Source: Lysobacterales bacterium (GTDB lineage: Bacteria > Pseudomonadota > Gammaproteobacteria > Xanthomonadales > SZUA-36). Taken from it: DNA of 52,959 nt. Location: NCBI GenBank assembly GCA_013042835.1, contig JABDPJ010000278.1, positions 1-52,959 of the forward strand, in the 5' to 3' direction. Every line of letters starts with the position of its first letter. Positions within the stretch are counted from its first letter, which is position 1. Positions 43,392-45,206 of the stretch are shown here, in pieces. The translations under genes and the position numbers were made by a program. The notes below the pieces were generated by a model. It was not told the DNA's origin. It worked only from the letters and a program-made list of their open reading frames with translations, and made no database searches.

Positions 43392-44193
43392 AAGCCATGA
43401 AAAAACCCTGGCAGCCCTCGTTGATATCAGTCAACGTGCCGGTCTCGCTATCCTCGAATGGTACGACGGCGACATGGGTATCACCCGCAAAGCGGATGAC
43501 TCGCCGCTTACCAGGGCTGACCTCGCAAGCCATGAGTTGATTGCCGCCGAGCTGGCCAGGCTGTGGCCAGAGATTCCGGTTTTATCCGAGGAGTCCGCCG
43601 ACATCCCCTGGGAAACGCGCCAGACCTGGAAAAAATACTGGCTGGTTGACCCGCTGGACGGTACCAAGGAGTTCATCAACAGGAATGGTGAATTCACTGT
43701 CAATATCGCCTTGATAAGCAACCATCGGGCCGTCATGGGTGTGGTTCACGTCCCGGTCAAGAACGTCAGCTATTTCGGCGCCAGCGATGCCGGTGCATGG
43801 CGCCAGCAAACCAACTCACCCGCGCAGGCTATCAGGGTCAGGCAACCCGCCGCCGAGCCCGCGATCATTGTCGGCAGCCGATCACATGCCAATCCGGAAC
43901 TCGCCGGCCAGCTCGAACAACTGGGGCCTCATGAACTCATCAGCATGGGCCGTTCTTTGAAGTTCTGCAGAATCGCGGAAGGCCTGGCAGATTTCTATCC
44001 GCGCACGGGACCAACCTGTGAATGGGACACCGCCGCTGCCCAGGCAGTTCTCGAGGCAGCTGGAGGAAAGGTCGTTAAAATCGACGGTACACCGCTGAAC
44101 TATAACAGCAAGGAGGTTTACCTGAATCCCCATTTCTTCGTGTTCGGTGATTCTCAGAGGGACTGGTTACTGCCATTTCAGAATATCGCCTAG
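43381..44193 (+). CDS. cysQ: 3'(2'),5'-bisphosphate nucleotidase CysQ
   Basis: VLSEESADIPWETRQTWKKYWLVDPLDGTKEFINRNGEFTVNIALI, GPTCEWDTAAAQAVLEAAGG. Confidence 0.96.
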   Translation: MLNESHEKTLAALVDISQRAGLAILEWYDGDMGITRKADDSPLTRADLASHELIAAELARLWPEIPVLSEESADIPWETRQTWKKYWLVDPLDGTKEFINRNGEFTVNIALISNHRAVMGVVHVPVKNVSYFGASDAGAWRQQTNSPAQAIRVRQPAAEPAIIVGSRSHANPELAGQLEQLGPHELISMGRSLKFCRIAEGLADFYPRTGPTCEWDTAAAQAVLEAAGGKVVKIDGTPLNYNSKEVYLNPHFFVFGDSQRDWLLPFQNIA

Positions 44194-44251: not shown

Positions 44252-44270
44252 CTGCGTCAACTTGACGCAG
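44252..44270. promoter_or_regulatory. Perfect 9-1-9 operator-like palindrome overlapping a -35 element
   Basis: CTGCGTCAA-C-TTGACGCAG. Confidence 0.7.
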
Positions 44271-44290
44271 AGCGGTTCAAGGAGTATAAA
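44262..44290 (+). promoter_or_regulatory. Near-consensus sigma70 promoter
   Basis: TTGACG (44262-44267), 17-nt spacer, TATAAA (44285-44290). Confidence 0.7.
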
Positions 44291-44296
44291 CTTCTC

Positions 44297-44390
44297 AACC
44301 ATCCTGTTGGGGCTTGCCAAACAACAACAACAATTGACAAAACCAATAATAGAATACAGGAATGTAAGCGGCTTCGGCCGCTTTTTCTTT
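44297..44390 (+). ncRNA. Candidate small RNA or attenuated 5' leader (~94 nt)
   Basis: Predicted start 7 nt after the -10; AACAACAACAACAA tract at 44319-44332; ends at a UUCG terminator. Confidence 0.45.
44366..44390 (+). terminator. Rho-independent terminator with UUCG tetraloop
   Basis: AAGCGGC-TTCG-GCCGCTT then TTTCTTT (44366-44390). Confidence 0.88.
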
Positions 44391-44413: not shown

Positions 44414-45151
44414 ATGAACTTTCCCGAGCTTCCAAAATGGCAACGCATTGCCCTGCCGGCCATGGTCATCATCCTGGGCACTTTTTTTTTCAATAAGTAT
44501 TTTATTGCCAACGAACTGATTCATGCCCATTACCAGGTCGAAGCCCTGGAACAGGACCTGCAGACAGCGCTTGACCAACTCGAGGCAGAAAAATCCCGCG
44601 CGGCGGTTGCAGAGCGTGAGGCCGGTGTGATGCGCCAGGCCAACAACATCTTGCGGGCATCCGAACGCGAACGACAGGATGAGATTGCCGGATTACGGGC
44701 CGACCTGGCGTTTTACCGCCGCCTCGGTGGCGCCAATGGTTCCCAGGCCCCGTTGGCCGTTCACTACCTTGAACTGCAGGCGACGCAATCACCAAGGGTC
44801 TACCGGATCATATTCACGCTGACGCAGAACTTGCGCTGGGCCGCAGTCATTTCGGGCAGCATCCAATTGGGCGTCGACGGCATCAACAACGGGGTAGCAC
44901 AACACCTGACGGAAGAACAGCTGCTGGCCGAAACGGCCGGGGCGCTGCGCTTCAAGTTTAAGTACTTCCAGCAATTTGAACGACTGATCACGCTACCGGA
45001 AGGCTTTGAGGCAAGCCAACTGACGGTTCGTCTCAGGTCGGGAAGTCTGCGCACACCCATTGAACAGTCGGTGACCTGGCAGAGCCTATTCAACCAGTCG
45101 GCGGAAACCGCGTCTGAAGACGAAGCGGTTTTATCCACAACCGACAATTGA
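44414..45151 (+). CDS. DUF6776-like membrane-anchored coiled-coil protein
   Basis: 245 aa; N-terminal [22 protein letters not shown], coiled coil, C-terminal domain FYRRLGG...[26 protein letters not shown]; upstream of erpA. Confidence 0.75.
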
Positions 45152-45206
45152 AAAAAATGCCCTGAAGCGCCATATTAGAGAGTCTCTCGGACGGATAGCA
45201 AACCGG

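Follow-up and report, generated by a model that had tools for sequence, protein, structure and literature searches.

In the 52,959-nt stretch of DNA analysed (the window), the upstream gene cysQ, of the inositol-phosphatase family, ends at 44193 and is followed in the same orientation by a compact unit with a predicted promoter and terminator of its own. The near-consensus sigma-70-type promoter (44262-44290, + strand) consists of a -35 box TTGACG (44262-44267), a 17-nt spacer (44268-44284) and a -10 box TATAAA (44285-44290), each read directly in the sequence. A 9-1-9 palindrome, CTGCGTCAA-C-TTGACGCAG (44252-44270, strandless), overlaps the -35 box. The predicted sRNA, of ~93 nt, extends from 44297 to 44388 on the + strand, its 5′ end being placed from the promoter and its 3′ end from the terminator. 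Within it GGGGCTTGCC (44309-44318, + strand) is the conserved block GGGGCUUGCC, which is GGGGUCUUGCC in sister genera, and is a candidate pairing region. Directly 3′ of the block is an A-rich tract of ARN/AAN repeats (44319-44357, + strand), with AACAACAACAACAA at 44320-44333 on the same strand, a candidate site for the distal face of Hfq. The intrinsic terminator (44366-44390, + strand) is AAGCGGC-UUCG-GCCGCUU with a U-rich tail, the DNA having stem AAGCGGC at 44366-44372, loop TTCG, stem GCCGCTT at 44377-44383 and tail TTTCTTT at 44384-44390.

The gene 3′ of the terminator encodes a DUF6776 protein (PF20567, 44414-45151, + strand; Pfam 120.9 bits), and beyond it is an erpA-like gene for an Fe-S carrier (PF01521, 45207-45554, + strand), which by synteny is a constant neighbour in the family. 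Between the two, a pattern scan revealed a separate promoter-like element upstream of erpA, TTGAAA-17-CATATT (45148-45176, + strand). About half of the erpA-bearing family loci, some of which lack the sRNA, have an element of the form TTGAA...CATA(G/T) ~36-80 nt ahead of erpA.

Re-reading of the DNA found all the motifs of the sequence-only reading in their places on the + strand. The terminator was independently detected by the pattern scanner, which skips the promoter at 44262-44290 as its rule demands T as the last -10 base. A model termed R1 matches 44296-44388 with an E value of 2.5e-14.

Conservation of the unit and its neighbours

The DNA similarity search covered 61 genomes, 37 of them of the same family (own genome counted), and detected the unit in 25 of these 37, plus a single genome from a different family. 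With four added by later searches and inspection, at least 29 of the 37 family genomes have it, as do all nine sampled members of the genus in which the erpA locus was found (own genome again counted). The eight family genomes without a detected unit include one (G005) that also lacks an erpA match. From one genus of the family (g11) the unit appears to have been lost, and in another genome (G014) cysQ is followed directly by DUF6776 with no sRNA between. An exact-pattern scan of named genomes gave records labelled Lysobacterales, Xanthomonadales, Chromatiales, Gammaproteobacteria and Proteobacteria metagenome-assembled genomes, and one unrelated-looking record.

As the sequence-only reading had wished to see, promoter, RNA interior and terminator are all kept in relatives. 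TTGAC-N-TATAA at 17-18-nt spacing is present in 25 of the 26 loci obtained by nucleotide similarity, and its retention while spacer sequences differ shows that the promoter is more than chance. Inside the RNA the strongest constraint is on GGGG(U)CUUGCC and the terminator; in the block at 44309-44318, eight positions (GGG-CU-GCC) are invariant across 23 sequences. The terminator barely varies, and no covariation of it was found within the family; in one member located by synteny (L090) the stem sequence is different and the pairing the same. Later members were gathered with patterns and models favouring this terminator and promoter, so that the identity is partly ascertainment. No reading frame, small ORF or leader peptide is conserved on the RNA strand, frames and starts varying across relatives.

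In every family carrier the unit is followed by DUF6776-erpA or, if DUF6776 is missing, by erpA. On its other side most family members have cysQ, immediately adjacent and co-oriented, and other carriers have a divergent membrane gene, Fur/bacterioferritin or ClcA there. This variety of upstream genes means that the unit is not a cysQ tail. In the family, 5-55 nt separate the terminator U run from the start of DUF6776 (24-27 nt, or 5 nt in related genera). This gap leaves no room for a promoter of its own, and so read-through probably supplies DUF6776. [In L010, L015-L017, L024, L025 and relatives, DUF6776 apparently starts ~5 nt past the U run with no Shine-Dalgarno sequence between.] L011, L012, L018, L042 and L080 retain the RNA despite having no DUF6776, while G014 has DUF6776 without the RNA and G024, a member of the same genus, has only the RNA. 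As each occurs without the other, the RNA is not merely a DUF6776 leader. The downstream gene also changes between lineages, being argC, DUF6776, erpA or a convergent argA, and no alternative (antiterminator) fold is conserved.

The palindrome and the modules of the RNA

The palindrome is present as it had been described, but as a signal it is unconvincing. Arm length falls from 9 through 8, 7 and 5 to 4 bp across five members of the genus and is 0-1 in every other testable relative, and by our own arithmetic ~0.2 arms of 9 bp at one fixed spacing are expected per window of such size. A search across the own genome for a second perfect copy found none, the only copy elsewhere having two mismatches. 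The dedicated repressor that had been proposed from it is not supported, with the palindrome limited to part of one genus and lacking a second perfect copy in the genome. It may be due to chance or be a recent, genus-level operator; judged by comparison among relatives, it is outside the conserved unit.

The A-rich tract turns over fast in sequence among relatives (AAACAACAACAACAA, AAATAACTATAACGA, GAATAATAATAATCA etc.), and its ARN character is greater than expected. In 32 sequences the longest ARN run has a mean of 3.78 compared with 2.78 in dinucleotide-preserving shuffles, and ARN coverage is 0.33 compared with 0.15, neither value being reached in any of 500 shuffles; the sequences are mutually related and their effective number is below 32. 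The own genome encodes an intact Hfq with the standard SIYLVNGIKLQGQ segment bearing the distal-face Tyr. The enrichment and the presence of the hfq gene bear out the Hfq-type tract suggested by the sequence-only reading, which remains a candidate site. In the genus the linker is predicted to be mostly unpaired (mean 0.73) and the 5′ region forms no stable hairpin (z about +0.4). The RNA of the own genome folds slightly better than shuffled counterparts (z = -1.5), and so the earlier description of the segment as having little evident structure needs correcting, as it is not conspicuously unstructured there. At the level of sequence the unit has several features of class II sRNAs: its own promoter, a U-tailed intrinsic terminator and ARN repeats predicted to be accessible.

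When the complement of UUGGGGCUUGCCAA was sought in 10 genomes of the genus, no recurrent target gene was found and counts were near background. GGGG(U)CUUGCC is lost in deeper members (L026, L044, L055, L049 and the argC group described below), and such loss would be unusual for a base-pairing seed.

Matches upstream of argC beyond the family

R2, a model covering promoter, RNA and terminator jointly, was run over 370 genomes of the class and gave 15 matches outside the family, with E values of 2.7e-6 to 1e-3. Nine of the 15 are just upstream of argC, most then followed by DUF6776 (argC itself was read for eight, and for L118 its placement was deduced from the position of DUF6776). Since R2 holds no neighbour information, the argC placement is independent support for homology. 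All four genomes of one small order have R2 matches, as do 13 of 34 of another; for seven of these 13 an argC could be recognised further down the retrieved stretch.

In the RNAs outside the family a clear 5′ stem-loop, its sequence specific to the lineage, is combined with an (AAU)n linker and the same terminator. Near-identity of the terminators is partly ascertainment, since a sequence gains R2 score by having the promoter and a terminator of this kind. The 5′ stem of one order covaries modestly: at two pairs both partners have changed, and 13 of 500 shuffles attain the observed score, which is above that of every slid version.

Some R2-matching promoter-hairpin-terminator units are away from argC (L111, L113, L116 and L120), each present in two genomes of a family; their loci are upstream of an unidentified ORF and between lipB-like and DedA-like genes. 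They may represent this RNA at a new location, or sRNAs unrelated to it. In one gammaproteobacterial order (L153-L162) a 5′ hairpin GAATT..ACTG/CAGT..AATTC is followed by a GAATT repeat before the terminator, and the repeat might offer alternative pairing.

Interpretation and relation to known systems

The unit is probably a self-contained gene for an independently transcribed, Hfq-dependent, class II-like sRNA of ~93 nt. A strong promoter of housekeeping type at 44262-44290 would start this non-coding RNA near 44297, and the UUCG-capped intrinsic terminator would end it near 44388. The A-R-N repeat tract would then sit on the distal face of Hfq and the U-rich 3′ tail on its proximal face, leaving GGGG(U)CUUGCC near the 5′ end to pair with target mRNAs. 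Part of the transcription would probably pass the terminator and supply the adjoining DUF6776. What had been called a regulated sRNA unit is upheld in its conserved promoter, terminator and ARN tract, though not in its dedicated regulator. The earlier failure to recognise a described RNA family also proved right, no Rfam family reaching threshold here or in relatives. The sRNA family is apparently undescribed, and its general type is familiar; our literature search found no report tying an sRNA to erpA in Xanthomonas and no description of the argC-upstream RNA.

An unlikely alternative, though one with real weight given the loss of the block in deeper lineages and the lack of a recurrent target of its complement in the 10 genus genomes, is that the RNA is a decoy which titrates Hfq through its A-rich tract, as CrcZ does, and has no pairing targets of its own. 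The ARN tract and U-tailed terminator are constant across distant lineages while the 5′ part changes completely, as a decoy would lead one to expect, and CrcZ is the nearest Rfam model, its A-rich motifs aligning to the ARN tract. Against this, there is a single ARN tract of about one hexamer in place of the six A-rich stretches of the 407-nt CrcZ (PMC4063720), and within the family it is the non-ARN block GGGG(U)CUUGCC that is best conserved beside the terminator. The genome also has no clear Crc. Its Crc-like protein scores 327 bits against exonuclease 2jc5 and 257 bits against Crc 4jg3, with catalytic residues and the GDWN motif kept (the assembly is 89% complete), and so the best Crc candidate looks like a catalytic exonuclease. 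[This Crc/exonuclease III-like gene, at L103:1384-2160 of the own genome, adjoins pyrE, as crc does in Pseudomonas, and retains its catalytic residues.]

Somewhat less probable again is that the unit is the 5′ UTR of a DUF6776(-erpA) operon whose terminator acts as a regulated stop, with the short RNA as a by-product or a 5′-UTR-derived sRNA. The sequence-only reading had offered an attenuated DUF6776 leader as its alternative, and the part of it that stands is the short gap and likely read-through. In other families argC is 55-362 nt downstream, also compatible with a leader, and E. coli has precedents in ChiZ and IspZ (PMC7815308). However, RNA and DUF6776 occur separately, the gene downstream varies by lineage, neither an antiterminator fold nor a leader peptide is conserved, and erpA has a promoter-like element of its own. 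It is highly improbable that the terminator serves only to end transcription of cysQ and that the promoter-like sequence arose by chance. Such a reading would suit the position and orientation of cysQ in most family members, but promoter and RNA interior are conserved besides the terminator, and the unit also occurs behind other upstream genes, divergent ones included; the terminator is thus not only that of a cysQ read-through transcript.

If the unit is placed in its wider setting, a speculative and rather doubtful extension is that it belongs to an ancient, undescribed gammaproteobacterial RNA family tied to argC-DUF6776-erpA, whose constant role would be Hfq occupancy and not base pairing to a fixed set of targets, i.e. 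a general decoy outside the Crc/Cbr system. The modules shared under that proposal would be a variable 5′ hairpin, the ARN tract and the near-invariant UUCG terminator. The unit adds an sRNA family missing from Rfam that is present across many uncultured Xanthomonadales-like genomes and probably in several other gammaproteobacterial families. Its constant Hfq-type tract and terminator, combined with a 5′ part that varies by lineage, make it well suited for testing whether the main role of some abundant sRNAs is to occupy Hfq. With read-through into DUF6776 or argC, the sRNA gene may also serve, in some of the lineages but not all, as leader of a housekeeping operon.

The enterobacterial class II Hfq sRNAs ChiX, MgrR, McaS and CyaR are short and have their own promoter, an ARN tract and a U-tailed terminator. 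The unit here appears by sequence to share all of these; it has no Rfam match to any of the four. The best-scoring Rfam model is CrcZ (RF01675), with 22.6 and 19.5 bits against a gathering threshold of 95 (E 0.0016), and it is the A-rich motifs, together with the UUCG terminator, that give this weak match. Both are resemblances to the Hfq-titrating CrcZ/CrcY/CrcX of Pseudomonadaceae, whose A-rich AAN motifs are fit for the Hfq distal face, and a similar way of working by Hfq titration is possible. Membership is rejected on score, length, promoter type and locus: ~93 nt against 407, one A-rich tract against six, a sigma-70-type promoter against the RpoN/CbrB control of CrcZ (PMC4063720), and a cysQ-DUF6776-erpA locus. 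[A genome search with the CrcZ model gave no match anywhere, controls included, and hence is no evidence of absence.] Aar of Acinetobacter was set aside, its seed being CUCC.

E. coli ChiZ and IspZ are short RNAs that arise where a terminator stands between a promoter and the gene close behind it (PMC7815308). This locus has the same order of promoter, terminator and close gene, but its RNA persists in genomes that lack the downstream gene, and that gene varies by lineage. A further comparison is with sX13 of Xanthomonas, which is Hfq-independent and has three C-rich stem-loops (PMC3771888). Like it, the RNA here is a conserved, predicted sRNA of ~100 nt in Xanthomonas relatives, but it is built instead of a G-rich block near the 5′ end and a single ARN tract.
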